NCBI GenBank assembly: GCA_022711115.1
Contig: JAKLFP010000004.1
Location: 1-64,000 of the forward strand
Length of the DNA: 64,000 nt
Reading direction: 5' to 3'
From: Candidatus Omnitrophota bacterium
GTDB taxonomy: Bacteria > Omnitrophota > Omnitrophia > Omnitrophales > Aquincolibacteriaceae
Positions 1,721-43,544 of this stretch are shown piece after piece; the first letter of the stretch is position 1; every line of letters starts with the position of its first letter. The notes beneath the pieces are model-generated. The model was not told the origin of the DNA. It saw only the letters and a program-made list of their open reading frames with translations, and did no database searches. The position numbers were made by a program, and so were the translations under genes.

Positions 1721-4700
1721 ATGATTTTTAAATCTGGTGGGACAGAACGTTTCTTTTTACTTCAAAAAACAATGGCTCTGCTTTTGTCTCTTTCGTTGAT
1801 TCTTTGTGATCCAATTTCTTACGCCGCATCGTTATCTCCAGAGGCTGACCCTGGAAAGGGTATGCCAGCTGATCTTGCCACCCTCTTACCCTCTGATTTG
1901 ATCCCTGCAACTTTTGGAAAGGTCGATGAGTCTTTTGCGGGCGATTCGAATAAAAGCATTATTTATATTCAGGATGCCCACGATTCGCTTGATGCCCAGG
2001 AAAATATCGCACGGATTATTGCTTATCTTGTGGAGCATCATGGCGTGAGAACGGTCTATGAAGAAGGTTATGAAGGACCGGTTCCGACCGACAAATATTT
2101 CGGTTTTTTGAAAGATCCAAAATCAAAAGAAAGGGCGTCCTATTTCCTGATGGATCGACTGCGGCTCAGCGGAGCAGAGTACGCGCATATCAACCGTACA
2201 AAAGACTTTAATCTCATCGGGGCTGACAGTCTAAAGAATCACCTGGCCAATATTACACAGTATCGCAAGTCTTCCCAATGGCAGCGAGAAACCGCAAGAG
2301 ATCTCGAAGCCATTCAAAAAGAAATCGCAAGTTTGATAAATCAATATTTCCCTAAAGACATGAAAGAATGGATCAAGATCAAAGACCGGTTTGATGGCCA
2401 TAAATTAAATCTCATGGATTATATGAGAAGATCTAAAAGTTTTATGATGCAACGGGTATCTTCCCGGAGATTTCAAGTTCTGTATCCCCATATCGATTTG
2501 ATTTTATCTTCCACGGAAAATTCCAGGGCAGAAGTTCTGAAGCGGATGAATAATTTAGATCCCAAAGGTCTTTTTCGGGAGATGCTGCAAATGGAAAAGG
2601 ATTATGCGGCTTCTGTCCTCCGCAACGAGCGGGATATGACGATATTCCAATACTACAAAATCCTGCAGATTTTTAAACGGCTTAATGCGATGGAAGTCCC
2701 GGCGGCGGAATTTGAAGTGGTGAAAGAAACATTGAACCAATTCAAGACCGGGGCATTGGCTCAATTTATTGTCGGAAATACGAATCGATCGCTTGTGCTT
2801 TCGAAAAGATTCGAAAGGAATCTCCGTGAAGCGATTTCTTTTTATGAGATCGCACACAGCAGAGATCATGCGATTGAAAAACAGCTGGGCCGTTTTGTTG
2901 CTGCACCTGAAGAAAAAATCGCGGTGTTGGTGTTCGGGGGATTCCACAGAGACAGGATTCAAGAGATCTTGAGGAGAAAACAGTTGTCTTATCAAATCGT
3001 CAGCCCGAAGATCCAGGTCATCGATGAGAAGCACAAAGCTTATTATAAACAGCTTATGACCGTAGGTTCTTATCCCTATGAATGGTCCTCGAGTGTTGTT
3101 TATTCGAGGGTGGCTGGGGACTCGCTTGCGGCGCGCTCTCAGCTGCCGGCCAATCTCCGGATTGCTTCAAGAACGCAGAGCAGCATTCAGATATGGGAGC
3201 TGAACCGTGAACAGGGATTTCAAATGGCCAGGGAAGAGTTAAAGATTATGGGGGATCTCGCCGCTCGTTATCCGGATTATGCTAACTTCAGTCTGGCTGT
3301 GGAAACCGCATTAAAACATTTAACAGTACCCACCGAAAATGCAGCCCGTTCGGAAGCGCGTAGCAGCTTCCGCATTGAGAGGAACGGCACTTCTGTTCTC
3401 ATGCGTGCCGAAATGCGAAAGGCAGATGAAACAACTGTTGCGATGTCATCCGAAGACATTCAAAGCATCCAAACGGAAATTAATTGGTTGATGGGGGAAT
3501 ACGCAAGGAGGCAAAGTCAATTAAACGGAAATATCAAAAAAGGTTTTCCGGACTTAATGGGACTTTTAAATCAAGGGCAGACTTTAATAACTCGCTTGCC
3601 GGAATCTTTGCCTGAAACTCAAGGATTTCGTATGGATTTATCCTTCAGAAAAGGAATGCTCTATCAAAGGGCAGCTCAAGCAACTGAGGATCCCGAGAAA
3701 CAATTGGATTTTCTGTTCGATGCCGAGAAGGAATATCGTAAAGCGTATACTGCTAAAAGCCGGCAGCAGGAAGCTTGGTCAATCATGAATCGGAATATCG
3801 AGATCCAGATGTTGTTGGCCCAATGGTTCAAAAAGAACATGAGTAAGGCTCGCGATGCGCAGGAATCAGAACGGAAGGCTTTTCACCATTTTTATCAAGC
3901 CATGCTTCTTTTATTCGAAGCCCAGCGGCTATTTGGTCCTGAAAGGATGAGCGATTTAACAAACCGGCTCCGGAAATTAGAACCTGTGATTCTTGATGCG
4001 AGACTCAGAGAGAATCACGCCCATGCAGTCAAGTTTAATCTGGTGAAGGCGGTTTATCGTTTATGGTTTGGTCAGTATAACAGCGGGGAATTTCAGAGAT
4101 TAGTCATGAAATATCAAAAAGTGCCGGGCATGAGGCGGGTTCTTGCTGCCATTGCCTACGACGAGCATCTGTTCGGCACTGTGACGGAACTCGAAATTGC
4201 CGAAAGACTCGAATCACTTTCTCCAAATCCCGATGGCATTAAGGTGATCGCGTTCCGGCAGCCCCTCGCCGACGCTTTGGATACCGTTGCTCCAAGAATT
4301 CAGATTGATCTCGTGATAAAAGTCGACGTGCCTGACGGCAAGATTTTCCGTAAGGCCGGAATCTATCTTGTGGAAGTGAAATCAACGAGACACGGAAGCT
4401 TCACGGCATGGATGGAAGATCCTGTGACCGTCAAAAGGCTTCCCGATATTGCAGTTCGGCAGAAAGAAGCGGCTGTTTATTTGCAGAAAAAAAAGGTTTC
4501 CATAGCGGGCCATTTGATTGCCTTGTCAGGAAAGGATATGGCAGATGGGTTGGAATATCCGGATGTTTATGGTCTGCGCGTTATGACTTTTCGAAAGGTT
4601 TGGTCGCAGGGGAATAGGGATGTGGTGGCCCCTCCGACGATGGAAGATATTATTGAATGGGGCAGAGAAATTTCCAACCTCTTGAGCGTCCTCGGTGTTT

Positions 4701-7700
4701 CAAGTGTCTCATTGAGACCCGAAGAAACGGATATTTCATCAAAAGGCACTTCAGAAATGCTACCAAAACCTAAAACACAAATGATGCGGCAAAGTGACGT
4801 CGAGAAGAAAATCTACGAGGCCTTTTCGATGTTGGCACGCGAGAAAAGTTTCCTGGAAATTTCATTGGATCTTGATGTTTCAGAATTAATTGTCACGCGG
4901 GATGGCGCCCTGGGGCAGAGATTTCCCACGCCTAAAATGGAGCGGATTGGGAAAAACACTCCTTTCGGAGCAACGGGAAATTTAAAGAATGTAAAACTTA
5001 TCTACATTGCGAAGCGTCCGGATGGGAAAATTTACCTCCATTTTTCCTATCAAACCAAGACTGGAGAAAATGGCACGGCCATTATTTATTGGACGAACGA
5101 TCACTACGCGGTCAGAGGCGCGGATGAAGAAGACGCGATTTATACTGCTTTTGAGGCATTGACGGATCAAACAGAGGGCCGCAAGATTTTAAACCTTGAA
5201 ATTTTGAAAGGATTGGGCTCCAGAAAATTGATTGTTCAGTTGCAGGGGCACCTGAGCCGGTGGTTTCCGACGCCACTGGGTTCTGAGATTGGCGAAAATC
5301 TTTCTATCGGGGCGGGTAACCAGTTGTATTCTGTACAACTTCAATGGATAGAAAAACGCAAAGATGGAAGATTGTATCTTTATTTTGCCTATGAGACCGA
5401 GGCTGGAGAAAAGGGAACGACTCTTCTCGCCTGGACTGGGGCAACTTATGAAGTGCGCGGAAATGCGGAGGAAGATAGGATTCATGCTGCTTTTGAGGAT
5501 CTTGCTTTTGTCAAAGAAGGAAAAAAGATTTTGAATCTAGAAATCTTTATGGGACTTGGTTCCGGAAAGCTGGTGACTGAGGAAGGCAAGCTTAGCCAAA
5601 GATTCCCGAATCCTAAAAATGATTCCTCCAATAAAAAGAGTTTAGGGCTTGGCATTCCCGGCAAAGTGAAGTTGGTTAGGCTGGTTCAAATTGAAAAACG
5701 CAAGGATGAAAATTTCTATCTGCATTTTGCGTATGAAACAGAAAATGGTGAAAAAGGGACAGCGGTTGTGGTGTGGGAAGAGAACCAGTATAGGATGCGT
5801 GGAAATGAAGAAAAGGACACAATTTATTTGGCTTTCGAAGAAATTCTTCGAGGGGAAAGAGATTCTAAGAAGCTTGATCTGGAGATTTTGATGGGGATCG
5901 GCCCCAAAAAAATGATCGATTCTCGCGACGGTGAACTTGGTCAGGGTTTTCCCTTTCCCCAAGCTCCTGAGTTGAAGGGGTTAAGAAAAGGTCAAGCATT
6001 TGGTGCGAGAGGGGACTTGAAATCAGTGAAACTTGACAGGATCGAAAAACGCGATGGGGGAACAATCTTTCTCCATTTTAGCTATGAAACCCGGTCCGGG
6101 AAGACGGGTTCGACCGTAGTTTTCTGGACGGGAGAAAATTATGCTGTGAAAGGGAACAGAGAACAAGACGTCATTTACTCAGTTTTCGATAAGCTTTCCA
6201 AATCTCCGGAAGCGCGTAGGATCGAATTGGGACTCGATGTTTCGAATTTAACAGATAAGCATCATGGCGAGCTCAGTTCTAGTTTTCCCACCCCATTGAT
6301 GCGTTTACTGGGCCAGTCCCAATCTTTCGGAGCTGCCAGCGATTTAAAATCGATCGTATTGACTTGGATAGAAAAAAGAAACGATGGAAAAATGTATCTC
6401 CATTTTTCGTATGAAACGCTACTCGGAGAAACAGGAACAACCGTAGTGCGCTGGGCGGAATCAAATTACGCCGTCCAAGGGAGTGAAGAGGCCGATAGGA
6501 TTTATTCTGTTTTCGAGGAAATCGGTCGTACGAAGGGACTGCGCAAAACTTCAATGGATTTGGATCTTTCTCGCACCAATTTGATCTGGTTAAAAACGGG
6601 TGCTCTTGGAACTAAGTTTCCAACCCCCTTAGGGCAAGGTTTAAAGCAAGCGAAGGCGATTGGTGCTGGTTGGAATCTTAAATCGGTGAAGTTAACCCAG
6701 ATTGAGCGTCGCGAAAACGGCAAGATCTATTTAACACTGATTTGTGAAAATCAAGAAGGCGAAATGCGGTCGGTGGAAATCGCATGGGATGGAGTCAGGA
6801 AGGAGTACCTGACTGCGGATCAGACGCTGGACCTTGAATTTGATAATCCTCAAATGGCTGAGGTAGTGTCAGGCTTGGCGAGTGATCCTGAGATGATGCT
6901 GGCTTATCTCCTTTTGGACACAGGTCTTGACTCGAAGCGTGCCCAAGCCTTAGTCACAGAAAGTGTTGCGGGACTTGCCGGTGTTGCTCCCTGGGTCCCT
7001 GATGTTTCCGCTTACGAATTGGTGGCCGGAAGGGCACACCCTGTTGCCAATACTATCAAAACCGCGGCCCCTTCTGTCATGATCGAAGGCAAAGTCGAAG
7101 GGAATTTTCGGCATCTCCTGATTCGAGGAGACCGGGAAAGACTGGTGGATGTCAACGAGGACGGGACTTTTCGTGTACGAATCATGTTGGCGGCAGGGAC
7201 GAATGTTCGTTTGACAATGACTCCGATCGATATCGACAAAGAAATCCGGGGGCAGGATGTTTCCGTCGAGATTGAACAATCTGCTGTCCGTCGTGACTTG
7301 GATGAAGTGATTATGCATCTGATCAGCGCTAAAGCAGGGCTCCTGAAGGCTATTCAGAAAGATGCTTACCGCTACAATTATTTACAACAAAAAATGGAAG
7401 TCGCGCTTTTGCAGCACTTTATGGAAGATGAAAGCGAAGGATTCAGGATTTTAGAACAAAAGATTCTTTCTGCTCCGAATGCGGGTGTGAGGGAGTTTTA
7501 CGAAAAGATCCGGGACAAATTTCAAAAAGTGCAGGCCCTGTCGATTCCGGATTTCCGGGAAAAATCTGAGGGAGTTCCGCAGCGCGTCTACTTTTATCAG
7601 CGGTACGCGCTTTATGAAGTTCTGCTTCATCAGGTTTCCGCAATGGCGGATTTTTTCAATCAACCGAGTGCCGACAAATACCTTCGCCAGCTCAATCCGA

Positions 7701-10700
7701 CGATCCAGCGATTACTTGAAAAAGTAAAAAATTCGGCTGTATCGGTATCTTGCCTTAATGCGGAAGAACTCTTAATGCTTTATCGCGGTTTAATGGAGGC
7801 CATTTATCCGAATGAGGGAGAAAGAAAAAAGGCTATTGCGGATTTTAAAGTGCCAGGTGTGATCCTTGCACTTGAACAAGGACTGGGTAAAACGCTTGTG
7901 GCACTTCTTTTGGGCCACATGAATCCGCAAGGGGCGCTTATTCTTGCACCCAAATCCCTTACCTCGAATTGGGAAAGTCAGGCATGGCGTTTTTTTGAAG
8001 AACCCAAGACACGGATGATGACCGGAAGCGGCGAAGAAAAAACCGAGGCATTATTAGAGGCGCCTGCGGATTCTCTCCGCATTGTCAATCTGGAATATTT
8101 GAGGGTGGATGATCCCACGAAGCGTCTTGAGGCCTTAAATCGTTATCCAGGGCAAGTCGTAATCCTGGATGAGAGTCAATTCGTTAAAAATACCGATTCC
8201 CTACAAACGCAAACTGCACTCCGGCTTCAGGGTGCTTTCAAATTATTTGTGAGCGCAACGCCGGTTTCGAATCCCCAGAGTGCGCGTCCGGTTTTAAAAG
8301 CACTTACGGATGAAAAGGCCTTTGAAGCATCAGAAGCTTTCAAAGCCATCATGCTGAAAGAAGAAGGGTTGGACGCGATCCGTCAGATTCATTTTATGTT
8401 GTCTCCCTATATGGTCCGGATCAAAAAGAAAAACGTATTTCGCGAATATGATACGAAAAAACCTCTCGAGATGCAGCACGATCGCTTGCCTGCAAAAAGG
8501 TGGGTCCCTCCCCGTAAACTGGGATTATTTGATTATACCTTAAACCAATCAGAATCCATGTTGGAACTTATGGTGGATTGGCCGGGTTGGAGCCGGAAAA
8601 AAATAGAGAGAACGCAAACACATGAAGCGGTTCAGACGGTTGATGACCTTGAAAGACGTCGTCGCGGCGAAATGCTGCTGGCAAAAATCCATGCCTTGAA
8701 ACAACTTGGGAATAATCCCCGGTATGTCGGGATTAACGAAGACTCGCCCAAAGCAGCCAAAGTAAGAGAAATCGTGGATTTGGAAGCAGGCCGGGATCTG
8801 GCAGCCGGACAAAGAAATGGAAAGGTTGTCATTTATACCTCCTACAAGCAGGAGGTCAAAGATTATGAAGCCATGTTTCGCCAATACGGAGCGGTCACTT
8901 ATTACGGCGATACGGGTGAAGGTCAGGTGGACTCCGATGGCTATTTAGTCAACGGAGAAGGCCAGCGATTACGTTTCAAATTGGAAAACAATCAATATGC
9001 CTTAAATCGAAAGGGGCGACCGTCCGAAGCGGAGTCTTATGAGCCAGGCGCACCGATGACTGCCTTGGAGTACAATCGTCTTGTATTTCAAAATGATCCG
9101 GACGTGCGAGTTTTGATTGCCACTTATGAAACAGGGGGATTAGGGGCGACATTTACGGCCGCGGATGCCGCAATTTTTGATGATCCGCCCCGAGATTATA
9201 TTCAACTTTATCAGGCCAGCGACCGCAATAACCGGATCGATAATAAGAGAAAAAAAATAGAAGTCCGGTATTATCAATTAACCGGAAAATATCCGGAATC
9301 CTTTTTAGCCAGCCTTGAAAATTTATTTGCCATTATCAATCATCGAACAGGAGCCATTCAATTAGTGAAAAAAACAGAACTGACCGCTGAAATGTCGGAT
9401 CCCGAAAAATTCAGGAAAATTAATCTCGAAAAAGCATTTCGTAAGGGAACTTATGATGAGATTCATGGTCTCCGGAACCTGAGCCGCCAGGGACGGATCT
9501 TTAGCCTTCAGATGGACGGTTTGCAAGGGCCTGAGGACCTGGAGCTCATGACCAAGTCTACTTTGCGCGAATCCATGCCGCTTCTTTTTGATGCGTCCGC
9601 ACCCGAAAAGGGAAAAGAGAGAGTCTATGTGCGGAGAAAGACTAGGGGTGAGAGTGAAGCGGATTACTTAGGCAAGATTTTAAAAGCGAGGGATTTACAG
9701 GGGCCTATCTTTTCGGATACCGAAGCCCGTATGATTCGCGAGATCGAAGATCGAAAAAATCTGGTGCCATTGCTCCGGGAATTACTGGCCTGGCAGGGCA
9801 TGGGGATGAAAGGCGCGCAGATTATGGACCTGCTCCAAGACAAGCGCAGTTTCCCCCGAATCTTGGAGATCCTTCGGTATTTTAGGAGCGAAAATTTAAT
9901 TGGCAAGGGACGATTGACGGCATCGGAACTTGTGACTGTTTTAAAACGGCCATACAGCAAAGAAGATTGGGGCAGTTATATCTCCTTCTTAAAAGACGGA
10001 CTTGGGAAAAGTATGCCACGTGAAATTGCCAAGATGGTGGCATCACCGATCTCTCAAAAAGAAATCGAAATGCGGTTAAATGCGATCAATGAAAACCCCG
10101 ATCTCAAAGTCATCAATACAAGGCAAAAACGGCAAGTGATTTTGGGACCTCTTCCGATAGGCGATATAAAACCCCTAGCGGATTATTTGAGATTAGTTTA
10201 TGACGAACTCACTGCATCGATCCGGCAGGAAGACGAACAGTTTTTTGTCACAAGATGGGATATCAATCGTTTTTCTGTTCCCATTTTGTCAAGTGCCCGT
10301 TCTTTTCGTGAAGCAAAACAGCTTATTGAAACTCTTCAACAAGAGGATCCGGGGCTAAAGCGGGGAACTGTCCTGAGTATTTTTCGAAGCGGTTTTGGAG
10401 AAAAGGAATGGCTGGAGATGCGGCAATTTTGGCGCCAGCCCGGTGTGACGGAGTTGATCCTTGAGCGGTCGGTTCGGGAAACGGCAGAAGTGCTTCAAAA
10501 TATTTATGAAAATCGGGCGGGGTTTAAAACACTGATCGAGCGCAATGGGACCTTACCGGACATGACAGGTCCTTTGAGCAAACCTGATAAAACGTATGTT
10601 CAGTTGCGCTATTGGTTAAGGCAGATTCCCGAAGCAGGATTAGATCAGGTTTTTCATGCTCTCCTTTCTCCGGAAGATTACTCCGAGGTCATGGCGATTG

Positions 10701-12157
10701 TTAAGGCGAGTCAGGAACGAGACAAAAAAAGTTTGGAAATATTTCTAGCGAGGACATCTTCGCCCAAATACCAAGTTACGGAATGGGGTGATGAGACGGA
10801 ACGGGATCCGGGAATAACAACCGCATGGCCTCAGGATGATTATGCGGAGGCCGGGCGCCTCCTTTTTTCATTCAATGGTGTTGGTTCAGCTGTTGTGGAA
10901 CGGCTTGTAGAAACTCATATCCCGCTTTTGGACCAAATCGAGCATGTTAACTACAGACGTGTGATGTATCGCGCCCTTCTGGAAGCAACCCGCCGTTATA
11001 ATCCCTATGACGACATGCTTCACGGAAGCGGTCGGTTCTTATCATTTCTTCAATCATGGCGTGGTCTCCTGAAGAAGGATGAACGTTTAGCGAGACAATT
11101 GTGGGCAGAGAACAGAGAGCCGATTTATGACAAAAAAAAATTCGAACTTGATAAAACGCAACGGGGGCGTGGTCCTCATAGTCGCCACGGATCTCGGGGC
11201 AATGATGAGGTTGTTAGTGAAGAAGATCTTGTGGGCTTTGATCAGCAGCAAATCAACTTAGATCGTTTAGTGAGATTATTTCGTCAGCGAGGATTTTCAA
11301 CTTCAGAAGCGGCAGAACATTTAAGGAAAAAAGTTAATGAGGCGCGCCGTCAGCCGTTTATGTTCGATGAAGATCCCGAATTCATAGCAGAAATGGCGCA
11401 AGAGATTGTCGCGCAGATGTTGCTTGATGATTCTCAGGAGAACCTGCCGAGCAAAGGAGAGAACGTTGGATCGAATGGGAATCTTTTGGATCTTTTGCTG
11501 GTCAAGGAAGATTTGGCTAAAGCGGGCAACCGGAATCATCAAAAAGGTTCTTCGGCGGTAATCCGTTCTGAAATGAGAGAAACTCAGCCGGATGTGCTTG
11601 CAGAGCCAAAATTTTTAGCTAAAAAGCCCATTGAAAATCTTACGCTTCCCGCGGCAATTTTTCTTGAATCAAAAGAGCTGGCTCAATTTACTCCCAATCA
11701 GTGGTCGGAAATCCTGATGCTTGTGCAGATGCACAAAACTTTGGATATTTATATTGATCAGGCCGATTTGCATTTGGCGGATCAAATCCCTTGGCTTCAA
11801 CGGTTGTTAAGGACAAACCCGGAACGGGTACATCTGGGCATGAGAAATCGTTCAAAATTGTCCAAAGCTCAGATCTTGATCCATGCCTCTTCAGTGGGAA
11901 CAGATCATGAGATTCAGTCAATCAAGCGAAGATACGGGCTGCAACGCGAAGTCTTCGCATTGGAATATGACCGGGGCGGTGCGATCTGCGCATTTCTTGG
12001 GATTCTCGAGTCTCTGGGCGACAAAGTTGCGCTGCTTCGCCAAATTCAGGATTATGCCGTTAAAGGTCCCAGCGGTCGCTGGCAAATCGCAGCATCCTAT
12101 CTTGCGTCCGTCTGGACCGAAATGCAAAACAGTTATGCCATCGCCTGGTCTGCTTAA
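1721..12157 (+). CDS. Giant exported multidomain protein with SNF2-type helicase (3478 aa)
   Basis: The N-terminus has a basic start, a hydrophobic stretch (about residues 17-32) and a likely cleavage site near SYAA, so export is predicted. Residues of about 80-450 form a ChaN/TraB-like domain ('IYIQDAHDS' at its start, 'VLVFGGFHRD' near its end) that also opens the next giant gene. Motifs RSEAR and RAEMR (3347-3418) end it. A helical region, a PD-(D/E)XK-like segment, six tandem repeats (4853-6830), a beta-rich segment, an SNF2-type helicase core (7837-9300) and long helical regions follow. RSEMR at 11564-11578 precedes a C-terminal alpha/beta domain ending in AIAWSA. The combination of a signal peptide with an ATP-dependent DNA translocase core is paradoxical. 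Either the N-terminus is a membrane anchor, or the domain is non-catalytic outside the cell. Overall function is unknown. Confidence 0.85.
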   Translation: MIFKSGGTERFFLLQKTMALLLSLSLILCDPISYAASLSPEADPGKGMPADLATLLPSDLIPATFGKVDESFAGDSNKSIIYIQDAHDSLDAQENIARIIAYLVEHHGVRTVYEEGYEGPVPTDKYFGFLKDPKSKERASYFLMDRLRLSGAEYAHINRTKDFNLIGADSLKNHLANITQYRKSSQWQRETARDLEAIQKEIASLINQYFPKDMKEWIKIKDRFDGHKLNLMDYMRRSKSFMMQRVSSRRFQVLYPHIDLILSSTENSRAEVLKRMNNLDPKGLFREMLQMEKDYAASVLRNERDMTIFQYYKILQIFKRLNAMEVPAAEFEVVKETLNQFKTGALAQFIVGNTNRSLVLSKRFERNLREAISFYEIAHSRDHAIEKQLGRFVAAPEEKIAVLVFGGFHRDRIQEILRRKQLSYQIVSPKIQVIDEKHKAYYKQLMTVGSYPYEWSSSVVYSRVAGDSLAARSQLPANLRIASRTQSSIQIWELNREQGFQMAREELKIMGDLAARYPDYANFSLAVETALKHLTVPTENAARSEARSSFRIERNGTSVLMRAEMRKADETTVAMSSEDIQSIQTEINWLMGEYARRQSQLNGNIKKGFPDLMGLLNQGQTLITRLPESLPETQGFRMDLSFRKGMLYQRAAQATEDPEKQLDFLFDAEKEYRKAYTAKSRQQEAWSIMNRNIEIQMLLAQWFKKNMSKARDAQESERKAFHHFYQAMLLLFEAQRLFGPERMSDLTNRLRKLEPVILDARLRENHAHAVKFNLVKAVYRLWFGQYNSGEFQRLVMKYQKVPGMRRVLAAIAYDEHLFGTVTELEIAERLESLSPNPDGIKVIAFRQPLADALDTVAPRIQIDLVIKVDVPDGKIFRKAGIYLVEVKSTRHGSFTAWMEDPVTVKRLPDIAVRQKEAAVYLQKKKVSIAGHLIALSGKDMADGLEYPDVYGLRVMTFRKVWSQGNRDVVAPPTMEDIIEWGREISNLLSVLGVSSVSLRPEETDISSKGTSEMLPKPKTQMMRQSDVEKKIYEAFSMLAREKSFLEISLDLDVSELIVTRDGALGQRFPTPKMERIGKNTPFGATGNLKNVKLIYIAKRPDGKIYLHFSYQTKTGENGTAIIYWTNDHYAVRGADEEDAIYTAFEALTDQTEGRKILNLEILKGLGSRKLIVQLQGHLSRWFPTPLGSEIGENLSIGAGNQLYSVQLQWIEKRKDGRLYLYFAYETEAGEKGTTLLAWTGATYEVRGNAEEDRIHAAFEDLAFVKEGKKILNLEIFMGLGSGKLVTEEGKLSQRFPNPKNDSSNKKSLGLGIPGKVKLVRLVQIEKRKDENFYLHFAYETENGEKGTAVVVWEENQYRMRGNEEKDTIYLAFEEILRGERDSKKLDLEILMGIGPKKMIDSRDGELGQGFPFPQAPELKGLRKGQAFGARGDLKSVKLDRIEKRDGGTIFLHFSYETRSGKTGSTVVFWTGENYAVKGNREQDVIYSVFDKLSKSPEARRIELGLDVSNLTDKHHGELSSSFPTPLMRLLGQSQSFGAASDLKSIVLTWIEKRNDGKMYLHFSYETLLGETGTTVVRWAESNYAVQGSEEADRIYSVFEEIGRTKGLRKTSMDLDLSRTNLIWLKTGALGTKFPTPLGQGLKQAKAIGAGWNLKSVKLTQIERRENGKIYLTLICENQEGEMRSVEIAWDGVRKEYLTADQTLDLEFDNPQMAEVVSGLASDPEMMLAYLLLDTGLDSKRAQALVTESVAGLAGVAPWVPDVSAYELVAGRAHPVANTIKTAAPSVMIEGKVEGNFRHLLIRGDRERLVDVNEDGTFRVRIMLAAGTNVRLTMTPIDIDKEIRGQDVSVEIEQSAVRRDLDEVIMHLISAKAGLLKAIQKDAYRYNYLQQKMEVALLQHFMEDESEGFRILEQKILSAPNAGVREFYEKIRDKFQKVQALSIPDFREKSEGVPQRVYFYQRYALYEVLLHQVSAMADFFNQPSADKYLRQLNPTIQRLLEKVKNSAVSVSCLNAEELLMLYRGLMEAIYPNEGERKKAIADFKVPGVILALEQGLGKTLVALLLGHMNPQGALILAPKSLTSNWESQAWRFFEEPKTRMMTGSGEEKTEALLEAPADSLRIVNLEYLRVDDPTKRLEALNRYPGQVVILDESQFVKNTDSLQTQTALRLQGAFKLFVSATPVSNPQSARPVLKALTDEKAFEASEAFKAIMLKEEGLDAIRQIHFMLSPYMVRIKKKNVFREYDTKKPLEMQHDRLPAKRWVPPRKLGLFDYTLNQSESMLELMVDWPGWSRKKIERTQTHEAVQTVDDLERRRRGEMLLAKIHALKQLGNNPRYVGINEDSPKAAKVREIVDLEAGRDLAAGQRNGKVVIYTSYKQEVKDYEAMFRQYGAVTYYGDTGEGQVDSDGYLVNGEGQRLRFKLENNQYALNRKGRPSEAESYEPGAPMTALEYNRLVFQNDPDVRVLIATYETGGLGATFTAADAAIFDDPPRDYIQLYQASDRNNRIDNKRKKIEVRYYQLTGKYPESFLASLENLFAIINHRTGAIQLVKKTELTAEMSDPEKFRKINLEKAFRKGTYDEIHGLRNLSRQGRIFSLQMDGLQGPEDLELMTKSTLRESMPLLFDASAPEKGKERVYVRRKTRGESEADYLGKILKARDLQGPIFSDTEARMIREIEDRKNLVPLLRELLAWQGMGMKGAQIMDLLQDKRSFPRILEILRYFRSENLIGKGRLTASELVTVLKRPYSKEDWGSYISFLKDGLGKSMPREIAKMVASPISQKEIEMRLNAINENPDLKVINTRQKRQVILGPLPIGDIKPLADYLRLVYDELTASIRQEDEQFFVTRWDINRFSVPILSSARSFREAKQLIETLQQEDPGLKRGTVLSIFRSGFGEKEWLEMRQFWRQPGVTELILERSVRETAEVLQNIYENRAGFKTLIERNGTLPDMTGPLSKPDKTYVQLRYWLRQIPEAGLDQVFHALLSPEDYSEVMAIVKASQERDKKSLEIFLARTSSPKYQVTEWGDETERDPGITTAWPQDDYAEAGRLLFSFNGVGSAVVERLVETHIPLLDQIEHVNYRRVMYRALLEATRRYNPYDDMLHGSGRFLSFLQSWRGLLKKDERLARQLWAENREPIYDKKKFELDKTQRGRGPHSRHGSRGNDEVVSEEDLVGFDQQQINLDRLVRLFRQRGFSTSEAAEHLRKKVNEARRQPFMFDEDPEFIAEMAQEIVAQMLLDDSQENLPSKGENVGSNGNLLDLLLVKEDLAKAGNRNHQKGSSAVIRSEMRETQPDVLAEPKFLAKKPIENLTLPAAIFLESKELAQFTPNQWSEILMLVQMHKTLDIYIDQADLHLADQIPWLQRLLRTNPERVHLGMRNRSKLSKAQILIHASSVGTDHEIQSIKRRYGLQREVFALEYDRGGAICAFLGILESLGDKVALLRQIQDYAVKGPSGRWQIAASYLASVWTEMQNSYAIAWSA
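4300..4570 (+). other. PD-(D/E)XK nuclease-like segment in the 3478-aa protein
   Basis: The segment has an Asp in 'QIDLVIKV' followed by a strand carrying E-V-K ('YLVEVKST', Glu codon at 4373, Lys codon at 4379), the core arrangement of PD-(D/E)XK nucleases and related restriction-like folds. The spacing and the hydrophobic strands fit, but the match is short and rests on motif shape alone. An alternative is a non-nuclease alpha/beta domain with a chance E-x-K. Confidence 0.35.
4853..6830 (+). repeat. Six tandem protein repeats of about 95-117 residues
   Basis: Units start near 4853, 5186, 5528, 5870, 6221 and 6545. Each begins with L/I-x-L-x-(L/I), then a 'FPTP' or 'FPNP' turn, a 'G-A/x-G-x-L-K-S-V-K-L' strand, an 'IEKR-D-G-x-x-Y-L-H-F-x-Y-E-T' hairpin, 'G-E-x-G-T', an aromatic 'W' strand, and an acidic helix 'G-x-E-E-D-x-I-Y-x-x-F-E'. 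The sixth unit is shorter and has lost the last helix. Divergence between units is large at DNA level, so this is an old amplification. The fold looks like a beta-meander with a capping helix. No known family is recognised. Confidence 0.85.
7837..9300 (+). other. SNF2-type helicase core inside the 3478-aa protein
   Basis: Motif I is 'EQGLGKT' (about 7873-7893). Motif II is 'VVILDESQFVKN' (about 8156-8191), DESQ in place of the usual DEAH/DEGH. Motif III is 'LFVSATPVSN'. Motifs V and VI are 'YETGGLGATFTAADAAIFDD' and 'QLYQASDRNNRID' (about 9124-9243), matching the SNF2 pattern of G-G-x-G followed by Q-x-x-D-R-x-x-R. The nucleotide-binding Lys, the acidic Asp-Glu and the arginine finger all appear present, so ATPase activity is possible. 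In SNF2 enzymes these motifs drive translocation on double-stranded DNA. Finding them inside a protein with an apparent signal peptide is the odd point. Confidence 0.8.
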
Positions 12158-12415: not shown

Positions 12416-12510
12416 TTAAAAGATAATAAATCTTGAAAATAAGTGTTTATTTTATACTTTCTTTTCAAGACCCTATCCTAGAGACAAAAAACAGGAAAAA
12501 CTATACAAGT

Positions 12511-15500
12511 ATGACAGTTTCTAACATGAAATCTGCGATGCTGAAGGGGATTTCTTTATTTGTGGCCATAGCTTTTTTTGTGACCACAATTATTTGGGAT
12601 CCGTCCGGTGCCATAGCTCAAAGTTTTGAGTTTGCGGAGCAGTCGAAGATCCAGCGCGATCTACAGCAGTATTTATATTCGATACCTGCGCAATGGGGTG
12701 CTCTCTCAGGTCAATGGATGCCTCCCACAACTTCAACGGCTCGTACCTTTATTGTCCATATCCAGGATGCGCACGCGAATCCCGAAGCTCAGCGGAATAT
12801 TAAATCAATGTTGTCCTATCTGGACAAGAAATATCCGGGACTTGTCATCGGGATTGAAGGACTCAAGGGGTCTTTGCATCCCGAGTATCTGGATTTCTTT
12901 ACAGAATATCCTGATGCAAACCGCGCCGTGATCGAGGACCTCCATCAAAAAGGCGAACTGAACGGAGCTGAGCTTTTCCTCCTGGAAAAATATCAAAAAA
13001 GACAACAGACCACAGACTACGGGCTTAAGACTAAAGATGTTGAAGTCTTGGCCGCGGTCTCGAGTCTGCAATCTCCGGTCTCCGGTATTGAAGACCTGGG
13101 ACTTTATCGCGACAATCTGAAAACCTATCGAGAACTTTTATCCAAGCGCGATGAGGTCCAAACGCTGTTGAACCCAGGCCGCGCTCAGCTTGAAAAAGAG
13201 ATTTCTTTGGTGCTGAACGCCGATCTTCGTGATTTCTTAAAAGAGCGTAGCCGCCGTAAGGAAGGGCGTTTCGATGTTTCGACCCAGGGCGATCCGCAGT
13301 TGCAAGTTTATGTCCGATATCTCGCCCAATTGTCTTCAAAAGTGCTCGCGATCGATCTTACGGATTCCCTGGAGCAATTACGTTTTCCGAATCTTCTCCG
13401 CGTGCTTCTTGCGGAGCAGGCTCAAAGAGATTTTGATCCAGAAACGGCCAAGGCCCAGTGGATGAAGACGGTGCAAACCATCCGTTCTTTGGTGCGCGAT
13501 ACGAACGAAAAAAAATTTTCGGATGCCTTGAGCTCTTTTGCCCGCGAAAAAGGTTTTCTTCCGGAAGCCGAGAGCGCTCCTTCTCGTTATTCCATCGACC
13601 GGGCGTTTTATCCCCGAAAACTTCTTGAAGGTTTGTTCCGATTTGCTAAAAAGCACGGAGTGAAATTAGAAACACAGGCCGACTTTTTGAAAAGCTGGAA
13701 ATGCATTGTTTTTCAGGCAGAGATCGATGTCAACGAGCTTCTGCAGGAAATGGCAAGTTTGGAAAATGGAGTGATTCGAAAGCTGGCCCGATCTGAAAAG
13801 GAAATGGTGATTGTCCGGCATTGGGAGATGATGGATCTTCTTGAAAAGTTGCTCAGGCTTGAATTAACGCGCGAGGAATATGAAAAGGTCGTGGCGCAGC
13901 GTTCTCAAATGGAAATTTTTACGAAAGGTTCCGGGGGCCTAGCGGCTTTTCTGACAAAGGCATTTCATTTTTATAAAATTTCCATCGAGCGTGACCATGC
14001 CATGGTTGAAAATCTTTTATCATTCATGCCTGAGGGCAAGGATCAAAAACCACGGGTCGGTGTTTTATATACCGGAGGATTTCATAGCGGGGGGATCCAT
14101 GACCTGCTGCGGCAAAAGGGGATCGGTTATGCTGTCTTGACACCGCGGACTCATGCCGTAGATCATGGGGAACTTTATTCAGAAGTTATGTCCGGTGAAC
14201 ATGCGGACCTGTCGGCGTATTTCAAAGTGAAAAATCCTTTTGCGACCAAACAGGAGGCCCTGCTGTTCAAAGAACTTCTCGAGACTGCAGCGCCGGTGCT
14301 GTTTGAAACATATCGCCGTTCGACGGAAGAAATTGCAAAACATGTCAGCGACACGATGGCCAAGCATCCGGTACTTTCCCAAGCAATAACCGCGGAACTT
14401 TCAGGACCCTCTGCCGTCATTTTCCATTCAAAACCGGGCTATCGGGCAAACATCCCTGGAACCGCAGCCGTGATGCCGCCTGCCATGACGGGGGATGCTC
14501 TGTACCTGCGTCAGCTTGAAAGTCAGGAATCTGTTTGGGGCAGGTCTTTGTCAGCCGAGGGGTTCGAGGTAACCGTTGATTTTGGAGAAGCCAAGGCCCT
14601 GACGCTGAATGTGAAACAGACAGAAATCATATCGGCGACGAAATCTAGAACGGTTAAGTTAGACAAAAGCATTGAAGCAACCATGGGCTCTCTGGCGGAT
14701 TTTCAAACACAAAGCACCTCCGCTGAGTTATCTCCCGGGGTATTCGCCGACGCTGTTTCTGCTGTTTCGGGAACACCCAACACTCTTGCTCGTTCCGAAG
14801 TGCGAGGGGAAAGGAAAGTAATCGATGGAAAAATTTTGAGTCCAATCCCGATGCTTGGTACCATCCTTCCTTTGGACCCTAAAGGGCGTTCGAGTTTTCA
14901 TTGGAGCATTCCGCCTTCGGCAGTTCCGGAAGCCAGGGAAAAAGCGGAAGCTTTTGTGGAGGAATTGATAACAAGTTATCAGGGTGATTTCAAAGTCAGA
15001 AAGACAGAGCGAGTGTCCCAGAAAGGGCTTTTGGCCTGGATCTTTCCGGCGATCGAAACCAAGATCTTTTCTGAATTCCTCTCGAAAAAATTAAAAGTCC
15101 AAAAAAAGAAAGGGATTCCGGAAAAGACCGCCATTGTGGAGCATCCGATCAGCCAACTGTTGACCGCCATTGAGGAAAACGAAGAAGCGCTGATCTATCA
15201 AATCAAAGAGGCCTATGATGTTTCGGATTTGATTCCTCCGGAAGAAAGATGGAACAATTCCGCGAGGGCTTCGATTGCGGTTAGCGAATTGATCCAACTT
15301 ATGTCGGATCTGACCCAGATCATGTACTTTTCTGAAAACAAGTTAGACCCTCTTCCAAAAGTCAGAGAACTTATAGTGTCTCTGTCTCAGGAAAAAGAAA
15401 AATTCCATCAAGAGCAAATGGAAATGCTCGACGCGACCGTTCTCTATCTTGCCAAAAGAAAAGAAGAACTTGTCCGGCGGAGGATAGAACGAAAGATGCT

Positions 15501-18500
15501 TTTCGCTTTAGATCAATTCATTCAATCCATTTTAAGTGGGCCGGAATTACTTCGTGACTTCAAACCGAGAATTGAAGCAGCCATTGAGGAAACAGCGAAG
15601 GCTTTGGATGAGATCATGGCTCGGAAATTGGAAAAAATATCAATTGTGATTCAACAAAAGCAAACGGAATTTCCTGAAGGGCCGGATATGCCGGATGTCA
15701 GAAAGTTAAAAGAACAAAAAGCGCTTATTCAGGACCGCAGAGACGCTGTTCTGGCCAAAAAGGCAAGCCTTCTCGACCAGCTGAGAAGTTCGGCGGATTT
15801 TCAAACCTTTCAGAAGGGCGTTGAGACGGATCTGAAGGCGTTGGAAGGGGAGATAAAAGAAGCTCAAAATTATATTAAGGAACACGGATCTGCCGCAGAT
15901 CAAAGCTATCTGGAAGGCAATAAAGCGGGACTTCACCAAGGATATGCGGCCCTATTCCGGTCTTTTGAATTTGTCGCAAATGACTTGGAAGGAGATTTTG
16001 ATGCTCACTCCTTGACGGGGAACGGATTAGCGGAAGGGTGGGATCAAGGGAGGCTTGATGCGATCAGGGCAAGGTTGGGCAATGGAGAAGCTGTCACGAA
16101 ACAAGAATGGGTTGAGGCAATCAACCAGATTCTATCGATCAGAATGCGCCTTGAAGATTATCAGAGCATGCGGGACAATCCGGACATTCTCACAATGCTG
16201 GAAAGGCGCGATAGCGATGCCAAGAATTTATTGTTAAAAGCATCGGACCCTAATTTTTTTCTAAGTAAATTGCAACTGGAACGTCTCAACAGGAGATTGT
16301 TAGAGGCTATTTATCCGGAGCAACTCAACAAAGCCCCTCTTTTCAGGAGTCTTTTGGAAAAAGCAGAAGATCATCCGGAGAGGCCGCTTTTGTGGCTGTT
16401 TTATGATGATCAAATCTTTGGAATGCTCAAAACCCGTTTGCTTATGGGGCCGTACCGGGGTCATCAATCTTTCGATAACGCCACCGATTCAGGAATGACC
16501 GGGCAAGCTTTAGTCCATGAAGTGATGAAACAATTGCAGGAAACGCCCGAAGAAGAGGTGGTTCAGGATGGCTCCGAGGTTTCTTATATTTTAGTAGTAC
16601 CTCCGGGGACGACGGACGAAAAGGTGACACCTCAAATCGAACGCTATGGCCGCCAAATCAAAGGCATTGTCGGTATTGATGCGATGCCCTACACCCATTG
16701 GGTGGCTCTGATCCGGGGCCGTTCCCATAAGATTCCTGTTCTGCTGGTCTTGTCGAATAACGCGGGAGATCTTCTAAAGCAACAAGGGACAAGAGCCATT
16801 CTCATGCCTCAATCTGAAGAGAACGGTGCGTTGATCTTGAATCCCAACAATGATGATTTAGCCGAGGAAAAAAAGAAAGCTCTGGAGCTTCAAAGATTGA
16901 GGGCGGCTCAAATTCGTATGCGCCAATTAATTGCCCCGGTTCGTCTCGCAGTCAATATCGATGCCTCGAATGCCGGAGCCTTGACGCAAGCCAATAAACA
17001 AGGAGGATCTGTGGTGTCTGCCGGACTTGTCCGCACCGATGTGATCCAGTCTGCCGTTGCGGAGAAAATGAAGCATCTGGCCACAAACACGGCGACCTCT
17101 AAATTCGATCCTGAGGCATGGCTGGATGGTTTTGGCCGTTCCGAAGTAAGGATGTCCTTTTCTCTCATGGAACGTTTTTCCAAATGGGATCCGAAAGGCC
17201 GTGGAAATCCGGATGCGATTCATGCCATTTTGGCAGTCAGGTCTGGGACGTATGAAGAAGTATTGAAACAGCAGGCGTTCGTTGGTGAAGACGTTCCCCT
17301 CAGGACATTGGATCTTCAAAGAGACAGTAAGAACCGCTCTGTCCTCGAAATGCTGGAAAAAATAGCGGAGGAGCATCCTCTGTCGACGGTCCGGAAAGAT
17401 CCGTCAAAACCTATCAGCGGGTTTAATTTTTATGAAAATAGCTCGATAGGGGAACTGATGCTAGCGCTTGAGATGGCCGCGATGATCATCGCTTATCAAA
17501 AAATCTGTCAAACGGTACCGAAAGGCCAGCGAGGCCGGTTAGTGCCTCTTTTCCCGCTGATTGAAACTCATGCCCAGTTTGAATGGATCAAACAAAAGAT
17601 CTGGCCCTTGGCACAGCGTATTGCTCTTTGGGAAATCGCAAACCGGTCCGGGTTTGATGCCGTGAAAATCGAACGTGCCGAAAAAGATATCCAAAAGATC
17701 GGTTCCGAAACAAAATTTGGGATCATGGTCGAATACATGTCTTTGTTGACCGGCCCGGAATTGGAGCTTTTTCTCCGGGATCCGGATATTGTCCGTTTTA
17801 ATGTCGGGAACAATGATCTCGTCAAGAATTATTGGGAGAGAAAGGGATTAAGGGTCAATCGTGAGAATCCCGCGAGTGGTTTCCTTCTGGAAAGGCTTGC
17901 CCCGGATTTGATAACGGGTCTGGAAGAGCTTATTCGAAGGGCCCAAAAAGTGGGGAAAAAAGTTTGCTTTTGCGGCGGGATGGCGGAAAGCGGTAAATTT
18001 CTTCTTGCCGTGGAATGGTGGCGGCGCCAAATCGGTACTCCCGATATGGCCGCCAAGGATTCACCGATATCGGTCAGTGGTACCGGTGATGGTGTGTCTC
18101 AGGTAAATTATGCCCTTCAGGTTTTTCGCGGCATCCCTGGCGAAGAACTCGAAACAGTTTTCGGTTCCTCCCAACAGGGATCTGAACTGGATATGCGGGC
18201 CAAGGAACTCTCGAGCCGTTATTTATCCATCTCGGAAGCGATTTCGGTCCTGGTGGAAGAATGGCAGGAGAGGTATGAGCGGGCAGGTTTTCAATACGGC
18301 CTCTATCGTCTTAACATCCACCCTGAAAATGATCTGGGGGGCAGTAAGGAATTTGTCTCCTTAAAGAAAGTTGTCCGTGCGTGGCTTGCAAACAATGAAC
18401 CCGATCTTTTGAAGCTTCAATTGTCAGAAAAGGATACGGCCGAAAAAGAAGAGGTGCGCAGAATTTTAACGTATTTGGCCGATCACAAAATGATGATTCG

Positions 18501-21500
18501 GGCAAATATCGAGAGAATTTTGGAAGCCTTTGATTTTATCGAGTCTGTCCGTGAAGTCCACCAGGAACTCCAGACGCAAGATCCTGAAAAATTCAGCGGG
18601 AATCTTTATCCGGCGATCATGGGTGAATTCGTTAATGCGTGGGAAAAGACCTGGCGAAAGAAGTATCACCGCTCTGAATCCGAACGTCCCAAATGGCTTT
18701 CGGAAGGAAAAACCAACGGCGATAAATCTCCTGAGGGTGATAAAAAAGAAGAACAGCGGATCAATGATTTCTATAAACATTATCATACTCAGGCGACCAT
18801 TATTTTTAAAGCCAATCGTCGAACTTTGCATGAAATCGATGCCTCTTTGATTCGGCCGACTTATTCGCATGAGGAACCCATTGAAGAATTCAAGGGGTAT
18901 GACGGCTTGATGCATAAGATCAAAATCCAGACCCGCCATGGGTTGACTTTTAGTCTACAGAGGGGACGAAAGGGTGAAGAGGCGGGTCAATATGTCCATG
19001 TGGAGAATGCCTTGGAAAATTTCAGAGCGCGACCGGAGCTGATGCTCAAAGTTTTTGCGATTGCGGCTGAAAGAGGCGCCTACATCAGCCATCGCACTCA
19101 GTGGGCCATGGAAGAATTGCAGCGTGAATTGGAGTCGGATCTGGAATCTCAAACGACGCAAGGCAGTGCGAAGGGCCGCCAGGAAGGATTGAAATTGGCC
19201 TTTAACACTTTTTTTGGAAAACTGCTGCGTCTGAATGATCCCAATTCGAACATAGCGTATGTGCTCTGGCGCATGGAAGAATATTATTTCTTGGCGCAAC
19301 ACGTTCCCTATTTCAGGGAATTGAATCGTTATTCCTTGAAGGATGGCACCATCTTTCCGCTTCAAATGCAGACCTTGCAGACTATGGAAACATTGGAAGG
19401 CCTTTACAGACAACAAGATGATTTTGTGAATCATCGTGCCGCCCGTGTTTTCAGACAATTGCGGGCTGATCCTGGGTTGCTGCAGCTGGCCCGGTTGGCT
19501 GTTCTGCTGCATCCGATGATTGAAAATGAAACAGGGTCTTATTTCACGGAGGAGAATGTTAGCCGGATCACAAAGCAATTTTTAGAAGGTTTGGGAATCC
19601 ATGATATGACACTCGAAAGACGGCTTGTCTGGCTTATGTTTCATCAGCATGGATTTGCCCGTTACGGCCTTCTGTCACTTCAGGATATCGAAAAGAAAGT
19701 GAATGAAATCGTGAAAAGCGAAGGAGCGGAGCTTCATCTTTTTTCTGTCTTGTACGCGGTGACTTTTGCGAAACAAGCAACGGAAGCCAATCCGGAAAGC
19801 AGGATTATGCTCCCGCGTCAGGGAGCAGACAATCCCTTGGCCAGTCTCGACAAATTTTTTCTGGCAGGGCAAGCCCTGTTGGCGCATGCGGCTAAAGTGC
19901 CGGTCTCCACGGCTGCGCTTACGGCCCATGATGCAGTGACTGTCGCAAATTACGAGGTGACCAAGGGGCGGAAAGCAGAAGTTTTTTCACAGTTGCAATC
20001 TTTGGTAATCTCCCAAGACTGGAAAAGCATTCTTGATGATTATTTAGCTAACACGCTGGGAGGAAAATATCCCGCACTGCGTCAGCTTTTAATCCAAACC
20101 CTCACTTCGCCGGATCTTTTTCAGAAACTTTTTGAGCGATTCAGCGCTAGGACATCCACCTATTACATGCAGACCATGGATACTGGTTCCTTATTGAAAC
20201 AGTTGCTTTTTTACCGCCATCTTTTGTATCTCAGGGAAAACAAGGATCATTATGCCCGGGCAACGGTTTTTTTCCCATTGCCTCACCAGTACAACGAAGC
20301 CTATGAAGTGATCATCGGCGCCGGGTTTGACGAAGTCGGCGAAGCAGCCCTGGATACCAGGGTGCTTTATGAAAACGGATTTTTTGTAGAGAATGCCGCC
20401 ATCCGGAATCCCCCTGATGAGCCGGTGTTGATCCGCTTCGTGGGTCATTTCCCGCACGGAGAGAACATGGCCCTGATCCAGAAAAAGATAGTGTCAGATC
20501 TCTCAGCTGTTTTTGCTCCCATTACTAGCGGCAAAAAATTTTGGCGCATAAGTTTGCGGGTTCCGACAGATACCGAAATGCGTTTCGAACGCGCGGATGA
20601 AGTGTATGAAGACCAAGCTATTTATGTTCCTAAAACGGATGCATGGGTCGGTTCCCCAACGCGTGCCATTTTTGACGCGAAGCCAGTCGACTATTATGGA
20701 AGAAGAGTGAGTGTTCTTCATGTCTCGATAGGTTCTTCAAACTGGCGTGGGCAGCTTTTAGTGCTTCTGACGACCCTTTCATGGCTCCAAGAACTTGATA
20801 TTAACGGGCTTCAATTCGAACAGATCAAAGGGTTCCCGCCGGAGACGCAGGTTTTTGTGACTAAAAAAGGGGAGCCCTTGGCTCCAGACCAGCAGGCATT
20901 GATCGCGAGACGTGTCGCGGAAATTTTAGACATGAAACCCATTACCATACAAAGTAAAGAAGCTTTCCCTGCGAAACCGGTTGAAAGAGCGGAAACCGTG
21001 ACCCAGACCTTGAAAATAAATCCGCTGGCGAGGCTCCATTTCCGGCCGGCCGCACAGATTATCAAACTTCTTAATGACTATCGTGTTCATCGCGCGACGC
21101 TTCGTTTTGGAGATCATCCGGACATTGATCTGAAGAGTCTTAATAAAGTGGTTGCGGCCGGGATCAAGGGAGATCCGCAGCAGGAGGTTCAGGTCACGAT
21201 TGTGCTGGAAGGAAAAAACAGGCGTAAATTGGAAGAGGTGATGGAGAAGATTGCGGAAAATGTGATTGCCATCCACGGGGAGGAAGAAGAACAGGTAAAA
21301 CTTTTTCAGCCTGTTCAGCGCTCGGAGCTAAGATCTCAGCCGTTTGGTTTCATAGGGCAGCTTGCAGGACAAGTTTTAAAAAAACAATTCAGATTTCCGG
21401 ATCTAGGATTTCATAAAGCACGTTCTGAAGTCCGCGAAGAGGTAACGCGGCAAGCTAAGATCACGAATAAGAAAGGAATCCATGAGCGGCCGGCAGGTCA

Positions 21501-42616: not shown

Positions 42617-43537
42617 ATGAAAACAAGCCGGTATTTCCTTACATGCTTTTTTCTTTCGTTCTTTTTTCTACGTCCCTCCTTTGCCGACGACTTCTACGGT
42701 ATTGAACCGGGAAGGAGTTCTAAAACTGACGTTGAAAAAATGCTTGGCCAAGCAACACAATCCGCGCCTCTGGGGGAGTGGGAGGAATATCGAGGGGCGA
42801 ATTACGATGCTGAAAAGATCGTCGCCCATTATCAACTCAACAATGCGACAGTCGAGAAAATTGATATTTATCCCTCGGTTTCAAGTGGAGAGGCCGATTA
42901 CCACCAGTGGCTGTCTCTTGATGACAGTGGAGAGGTGACGAAAGCCGCTGATGGTTCGCGTCTTAAGATTTATAGGGCACGAGGCATCATGTTGAAATTT
43001 TCCGGGCCGGCGGAAACGGACCCGATCCAAATGATTACCCACTTTCCCGCGCCTGGCCGAACAGCTGTTCAGGCCGCCACACCGGCAGTTACAAGCTTTC
43101 CTCCGCAGTCTTCCGGACGGAAATATCTCGGGGTCGAAATACAGTACGATAACGGCAGCATTCATGTGGTGGGGATTCATCCCGGCTCGCCGGCGGAACG
43201 CGGTGGTTTGGCCGTGGGCGACCGGATCCTGGGAAGCGGGGCGATGCGTTTCCAAAGCAACGCGGAATTTGTAGCCGCGCTGCAACGCCTTCCAGTCAAT
43301 TATCCGGTGCAATTTTTCATTCAACGGAACGGGAAGGTCCTTGAATTCCGCATCCCGCTGGAACTGAGATCCGAGGCCGAAATCCAGGCGATTGGTGAGC
43401 AGCAGCGCCAGATCCGCGAGACCAAAGAACAGGAGACGCAGGCGGAAGCTCAAAGGCGGAGGCAGAATGTCGCCGATTCTATCGCGAAGGTCGTGGCGGT
43501 TATCAACGAACAGGTGATTCAGAAGATGGATGACTGA
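42617..43537 (+). CDS. Exported PDZ-domain protein (306 aa)
   Basis: Signal peptide 'KTSRYFLTCFFLSFFFLRPSFAD' fixes the start at the ATG at 42617; the longer frame upstream from 42422 would bury it. Residues of about 25-140 form a small exported domain starting 'FYGIEPGRSSKTDVEKMLG', like SmpA/OmlA-type 'G-x-s-k-x-d-v' domains. A PDZ domain follows ('YLGVEIQYDN...VVGIHPGSPAERGGLAVGDRIL'), which typically binds exposed protein C-termini. A charged coiled-coil tail (QQRQIRETKEQETQAEAQRRR) ends the protein. Its stop lies seven bases before the ATG of the next large exported protein, so the two are co-expressed and may form a complex. Confidence 0.8.
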   Translation: MKTSRYFLTCFFLSFFFLRPSFADDFYGIEPGRSSKTDVEKMLGQATQSAPLGEWEEYRGANYDAEKIVAHYQLNNATVEKIDIYPSVSSGEADYHQWLSLDDSGEVTKAADGSRLKIYRARGIMLKFSGPAETDPIQMITHFPAPGRTAVQAATPAVTSFPPQSSGRKYLGVEIQYDNGSIHVVGIHPGSPAERGGLAVGDRILGSGAMRFQSNAEFVAALQRLPVNYPVQFFIQRNGKVLEFRIPLELRSEAEIQAIGEQQRQIRETKEQETQAEAQRRRQNVADSIAKVVAVINEQVIQKMDD

Positions 43538-43544
43538 GGCGGTT

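Follow-up and report, generated by a model that had tools for sequence, protein, structure and literature searches.

An SNF2-type ATPase embedded in a cysteine-depleted, apparently exported giant protein of an Omnitrophota bacterium

What is an SNF2 motor, of the kind that uses ATP on DNA in the cytoplasm, doing in a protein that appears to be exported? The question is raised by a 64,000-nucleotide stretch of DNA from Candidatus Omnitrophota bacterium (assembly GCA_022711115.1, contig JAKLFP010000004.1, positions 1 to 64,000), here called the window. Its forward-strand open reading frame (ORF) at 1721-12157 encodes a protein of 3478 amino acids (aa), P0001, in which an initial annotation had recognized an SNF2-type helicase. 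In our analysis, the presence of an intact SNF2 motor within an exported protein was supported by profile hidden Markov models, invariant catalytic residues, a signal peptide and the depletion of cysteine. P0001 is a member of a genome-wide class of giants that are poor in cysteine and punctuated by a short tag, RSExR. We tentatively read it as an exported polyprotein that would be cut at RSExR to release a DNA-targeting SNF2 motor for use in another cell; cleavage, activity and delivery are the parts that we infer, and we rate the whole a little short of an even chance.

The helicase had been placed at 7837-9300, and all of the motifs that we located fell inside this interval. The SNF2_N-type domain of Pfam (SNF2-rel_dom) matched aa 2043-2240 of P0001 (E 5.9e-19) with 68.7 bits against a curated cut-off of 24.9, while a weak match to Helicase_C (aa 2459-2506, E 0.0015) reached 19.2 bits and stayed below its cut-off of 23.5. 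In the G311:C43 homologue from another genome the Helicase_C lobe scored 32.2 bits. The strongest family match of the 957-aa SNF2 module was the phage family phrog_62, “DNA helicase” (E 3.8e-45), and this family also ranked first for all six SNF2 homologues (E 5e-24 to 2e-45). Sequence matches in the Protein Data Bank (PDB; best 8e-16) were all SNF2-family remodellers or helicases, namely CHD1L, ISW1, INO80, SNF2 and an SNF2/Rad54-family helicase. Motifs I, II (as DESQ), III, V and VI, which the initial annotation had reported, were each recovered:

7568..9640 (+): SNF2 ATPase, aa 1950-2640, from Pfam, phrog_62, PDB and alignment, with motifs I-VI at 7874-9256
7874-7894: SNF2 motif I, EQGLGKT
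7937-7972: SNF2 motif Ia
8156-8182: SNF2 motif II, LDESQ
8243-8272: SNF2 motif III, SATP
8822-8857: SNF2 motif IV
9110-9178: SNF2 motif V
9203-9256: SNF2 motif VI, QASDRNNRIDNKRKK

Profile searches showed that this SNF2 subfamily is rare, with six proteins in total from five of 384 genomes of the phylum, and the SNF2 match in P0001 was the only one in its own genome. A scan of genome contigs from other organisms with the helicase gave one match, a weak one (Clostridium). The homologues are 26-40% identical to P0001 in a six-protein alignment, in which GxGKT with its Lys (motif I), DES (motif II), TP (motif III), Gly...Gly/TA (motif V) and Q...R..R.D..RK (motif VI, including its arginines) are invariant. 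Since Lys and DES are kept in all six proteins, the loss of Lys or Asp-Glu in relatives, which the initial annotation had named as contrary evidence, was not found. No homologues close enough for an estimate of nonsynonymous to synonymous substitution (dN/dS) were found.

The claim that the 3478-aa protein is apparently exported also held up, on two properties that were both read from the sequence. One is the N-terminus:

1721..1828 (+): signal peptide, aa 1-36, with a basic n-region, a 14-aa core of mean hydropathy 2.10 and an A-x-A-like site

This signal peptide was called from a composition scan, and its hydrophobic core is ALLLSLSLILCDPI. No second transmembrane-like segment was detected in P0001 by the same type of scan. 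The other property is cysteine content. P0001 contains 4 Cys where 37 would be expected from the neighboring ORFs (Poisson P 6e-12). Giants of its own genome have 0.9 Cys per 1000 aa compared to 10.7 in neighboring ORFs (background from mechanical gene calls, taken as the longest non-overlapping ORFs), a 12-fold depletion, and other residues are barely shifted. The SNF2-bearing ORFs of other genomes contain 0-3.6 Cys per 1000 aa, as compared to 13.3 in the ordinary small ORFs there, and giants in relatives are mostly Cys-poor as well. Because exported proteins typically avoid cysteine, this depletion provides independent support for export.

Behind the signal peptide lies a domain that P0001 shares with many other giants:

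1901..3118 (+): leader domain, aa 61-466, defined by an alignment of 13 ORFs of the same genome

The residues H, Q, EG, R and GGxH are invariant in this alignment. The leader domain gave 22 matches (as pieces) in its own genome, where at least 13 ORFs, the longest of 11,701 aa, begin with it. It was found in 137 of the 270 genomes sampled from the phylum, and the ORFs there reach 26,995 aa. A signal-type N-terminal layout was common to the leader-bearing ORFs examined. Profile matches of the domain were weak (Pfam DUF5694, E 0.009; ChaN, E 0.17), and its AlphaFold2 model was of low confidence (predicted local distance difference test, pLDDT, 51.6) and had no significant Foldseek match; the weak resemblance to the ChaN/TIKI superfamily is suggestive. 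A 733-aa stand-alone leader-domain protein that contains no RSExR is encoded adjacent to, and divergently from, the 11,701-aa giant of this genome (G000:C22, L042 16085 (+)), and it is a candidate helper or processing factor. Among the SNF2 homologues, the G311:C41 giant, which comes from another family, also opens with a signal peptide but its leader is unrelated to that of P0001. This second leader type recurs at L107:2141 (-).

The inter-domain tag was the most prominent feature of the class. An unbiased gapped-motif search of the giants (86,309 aa) ranked RSE.R first, with 194 copies observed and 1.7 expected. Written as R-[SA]-E-[VMLIA]-R, the tag occurs 220 times in the same sequences (shuffle mean 1.36), as 191 copies of RSE[VMLIA]R and 29 of RAE[VMLIA]R, and single-change variants occur 0-2 times each. 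None of 128 RSExR-type motifs lay inside a Pfam domain, where 15-17 would be expected (P<5e-5). Of 24 domain starts, 12 were found 50 aa or less after a tag (4 expected, P 3e-4; two HPr boundaries in this test were placed by eye). The tag is absent from ordinary ORFs save single cases. A separate observation in the window is a 1641-aa signal-peptide ORF at 43530-48455 that has few Cys and one RAEIR, and is not a leader-type giant. P0001 itself carries three copies:

3347..3361 (+): inter-domain motif RSEAR, aa 543-547
3404..3418 (+): inter-domain motif RAEMR, aa 562-566
11564..11578 (+): inter-domain motif RSEMR, aa 3282-3286

The position after the second Arg of the tag is taken by a small residue, as at P1' of many processing sites. 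Given this residue, the near-absolute conservation of the tag and its strict inter-domain position, the most economical reading is that RSExR is a predicted protease site, with linker or docking roles as the alternatives. None of the papers considered describes RSEVR in such a setting. At the DNA level the 220 copies comprise 193 distinct 15-mers; nevertheless Ser is encoded mostly by TCN (AGY in 6 of 191) and the first Arg mostly by CGY. This codon bias despite distinct 15-mers suggests that the copies probably go back to a single ancestral sequence that is now kept at the protein level, although the tag may have a role in DNA, for example as a recombination site. RSExR is shared to a varying degree by relatives of the same family. 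Other linkers were seen in small counts in other lineages (A[AS]SLG in G042 and G097, GARL[AS] in G031/G189; loci L076, L077, L079 and L086 in G097, G042, G189 and G031, respectively), and the comparison suggests that the tag sequence changes between lineages.

The reading frame of P0001 is uninterrupted over its full length. Apart from the elements above, we distinguished the following parts:

1721..12157 (+): P0001 ORF, 3478 aa, comprising leader domain, RSExR linkers, repeat array, SNF2 module and C-terminal domain
4298..4486 (+): PD-(D/E)XK-like motif D...EVK...Q, aa 860-922, unconfirmed, by sequence inspection only
4814..6823 (+): six tandem repeats of ~110 aa, aa 1032-1701, copies 38-45% identical to the first
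6845..6982 (+): helical element “NPQMAEVVSGLASDPEMMLAYLL...GLAG”, aa 1709-1754, which the alignment shows to be conserved ahead of SNF2
7073..7282 (+): immunoglobulin (Ig)-like segment, aa 1785-1854, likewise conserved ahead of SNF2 in the alignment (weak Glucodextran_B match, E 0.06)
9641..11563 (+): mainly helical region past the SNF2 core, aa 2641-3281, without a family match
11579..12154 (+): C-terminal domain ending in ...SA, which resembles the end of one other giant (E 5e-5)

The initial annotation had also described a PD-(D/E)XK-like segment. The D...EVK...Q motif is indeed present at aa 860-922; however, this segment had no Pfam match and no homologue was found for it, and a nuclease comparison with another giant bearing related repeats found nothing, so that the nuclease is putative.

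The order of helical element, Ig-like segment and SNF2 was kept in five proteins from four genomes, these being the ones in which the upstream part was covered. The SNF2 module also lies behind repeat arrays in four other genomes, and these arrays differ from protein to protein. The repeats of P0001 are related to those preceding SNF2 in G042:C11 and to repeats in another giant of its own genome, and the AlphaFold2 model of a P0001 repeat was of low confidence with no significant Foldseek match. In the G311:C41 giant (L108, ORF from 12597 (-), 4199 aa) the array ahead of SNF2 consists of helix-turn-helix (HTH)-like repeats (Pfam HTH_11, HTH_24 and MerR). The simplest reading is that a variable, possibly DNA-recognizing array is joined to a constant SNF2 motor; in P0001 itself DNA binding is putative.

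We propose that P0001 would act as an exported, Cys-depleted polyprotein in which the signal peptide is followed by the conserved leader domain, and in which the R-[SA]-E-x-R tags after the leader and before the C-terminal domain would serve as cut sites. If cut at RAEMR (aa 562) and again at RSEMR (aa 3282), P0001 would release a DNA-acting module of ~2,700 residues made up of the tandem repeats, which may recognize DNA, the Ig-like connector and the SNF2 motor. The motor would translocate on double-stranded DNA with ATP. Because SNF2 needs ATP and DNA, and both are present there, the cytoplasm of a cell other than the producer, prey or host, would be the likeliest workplace of the freed module. 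Several points weigh against this proposal. A piece of ~2,700 residues is large to deliver, and neither a secretion system nor a protease could be connected with the P0001 gene (no test for a secretion system was made). The tags could be mere linkers or binding sites, and the P0001 repeats had no confident fold or DNA-binding match. Some distant leader-bearing giants are not depleted of cysteine (10.2 Cys per 1000 aa in G080 and 6.1 in G122), and the cargo of the class is mostly metabolic rather than toxin-like.

Further giants of the class lie on either side of P0001:

2..1390 (+): tail of one more RSExR giant, truncated where the contig begins, with LamG, two motifs and 0 Cys
12433..33558 (+): next gene, a 7041-aa giant of the same class with 20 RSExR-type motifs and PTS EI-C, three HPr, response regulator and DUF7790 modules

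The three HPr modules of the 7041-aa giant retain the phosphorylatable His. In the cargo giants of this genome (contigs C12, C20, C21, C22 and C24 of G000; loci L030-L046), the enzymes between tags include glutamate dehydrogenase (E 2e-57), malic enzyme, a UDP-glucose pyrophosphorylase-like protein, an epimerase, inositol phosphatase, phosphofructokinase, glucosamine-6-phosphate isomerase and phosphoglucomutase. PTS EI-C, HPr, response regulator, MraZ, carrier protein and methyltransferase modules are also present. By inspection, the embedded enzymes keep their active-site motifs, and most of these modules contain no Cys. The genome also encodes an ordinary stand-alone glutamate dehydrogenase (8 Cys) and stand-alone phosphofructokinases, and therefore the embedded versions of these two families, the ones checked, are additional copies. 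The SNF2 module is one cargo type among many. The initial annotation had speculated that the protein is delivered to other cells, to act there as a toxin or in processing DNA; this role is conjectural. As the identified modules are mostly metabolic or regulatory enzymes, a role as a toxin is just one of several possible roles. A broader proposal, which we regard as speculative and rather unlikely as it stands, is that this lineage exports genome-encoded polyproteins in which dozens of Cys-purged modules (glycolysis, amino-acid and sugar-nucleotide metabolism, phosphotransfer, methylation, DNA motors) lie behind a common signal-bearing leader, would be cut at the near-invariant RSExR tag (A[AS]SLG or GARL[AS] in other lineages) and would work inside other cells, SNF2 being the DNA-directed part.

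One alternative is that P0001 is exported but remains uncut at the surface or in the periplasm. RSExR would then be a structural linker or a scaffold docking site, and the motor would bind extracellular DNA, for attachment or capture, without ATP turnover. The signal peptide, the Cys depletion and the LamG module in the upstream giant fit this alternative, and in the part of Seymour et al. (2023, PMC10066038) considered here the giant ORFs of Omnitrophota are called functionally opaque and likely to be surface or adhesion proteins. However, the invariant SNF2 catalytic residues and the recognizable active-site motifs of the embedded enzymes argue for catalysis rather than binding, and the lack of near-miss tag variants fits sequence-specific recognition better than a flexible linker; we consider an uncut surface molecule possible but unlikely. 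It is less probable still that P0001 works in the producer's cytoplasm, its N-terminus being a membrane anchor or unused and its motor serving DNA defense or chromosome work like DrmD of DISARM, ZorD of Zorya or DpdE of Dpd. The cytoplasm is where SNF2 motors use ATP on DNA, P0001 is the sole SNF2 match in the genome, and these defense proteins have an SNF2 core in common with it (PADLOC E 2e-13 to 5e-11, with DpdE at 2e-13 and ZorD at 5e-11). On the other hand, the PADLOC matches are partial and their scores lie far under the curated cut-offs (31 of 1200, 27 of 1500 and 26 of 950 bits), on which membership in these three systems was rejected. P0001 also differs in its context as an exported giant: partner genes were not recognized, the flanking genes are two more leader/RSExR giants instead, and a 12-fold Cys depletion has no obvious reason in the cytoplasm.

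Another possibility is that the giants gather captured genes and decay, SNF2 being a non-functional passenger. The patchy distribution of the subfamily (5 of 384 genomes) is in keeping with this. It is nevertheless improbable, as the ORF has no stop or frame break, the motif residues are invariant at 26-40% identity, and the upstream order of helical element and Ig-like segment is kept in five of the six proteins. The least probable explanation, to which we give very little weight, is that P0001 is a true polyvalent protein, that is, a counter-defense protein injected by a resident phage or conjugative element. Polyvalent proteins that phages inject into their hosts carry SNF2 ATPases (Iyer et al. 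2017, PMC5512222), and phrog_62 is the top family in all six homologues. The phage and plasmid polyvalent proteins (DarB type; phrog_62) are in fact the closest precedent for P0001, as they place an SNF2 core within very large multi-domain proteins, and they are a precedent for a translocated SNF2 motor. P0001 differs from them in that it is chromosomal, begins with a signal-peptide leader, is Cys-depleted and RSExR-punctuated, and has no adenine methylase coupled to SNF2 (no methylase domain was found in its ORF with Pfam). No relative was found in viral contigs, and matches to phage proteins were weak (best about 6e-10). The leader and the giants occur at many sites in its own genome and the leader recurs across about half of the sampled genomes (137 of 270), while no phage or conjugation context was seen; packaging and conjugation genes were absent from the ORF list of the window, which was not exhaustively annotated.

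The proposal of an exported and processed polyprotein can also be set beside two other groups of large proteins. Viral polyproteins carry many functional modules in one chain, with a short, near-invariant recognition sequence between them. The giants described here are alike in working principle; they differ in being encoded on a bacterial chromosome, in having an export signal, and in that their cleavage is predicted from sequence. The second group is the Omnitrophota giants themselves. The lipocone study (eLife 2025, PMC12419801) noted gigantic multi-enzyme proteins in this phylum and suggested that they act on prey. In the parts of this study and of PMC10066038 considered here, the proteins resemble ours in being very long ORFs, several per genome, and in joining enzymes, receiver domains, methylases and peptidases within a single chain. 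Those parts of the two accounts do not mention a recurrent inter-domain motif, Cys depletion, a shared leader or SNF2. The P0001 ORF (10.4 kb) is under the 20-kb limit given in that part of Seymour et al., whereas the neighboring giant (21.1 kb) is over it.

These results provide three testable handles for otherwise opaque giants: a shared leader domain, a strictly inter-module RSExR, and the purging of Cys from otherwise cytoplasmic enzymes. With these handles the boundaries of individual modules can be predicted. Should the modules prove to be exported and cut, enzymes that serve metabolism or act on DNA, including an SNF2 motor, would operate outside of the producing cell.

The C-terminal ends of the giants showed a pattern of their own. 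A C-terminal domain universal to the class was considered and rejected, since the similarity was confined to one pair. The last two residues are SA or AA in nearly all complete giants of this genome, the preceding domains being mostly dissimilar, and these termini may be a signal for sorting or processing.
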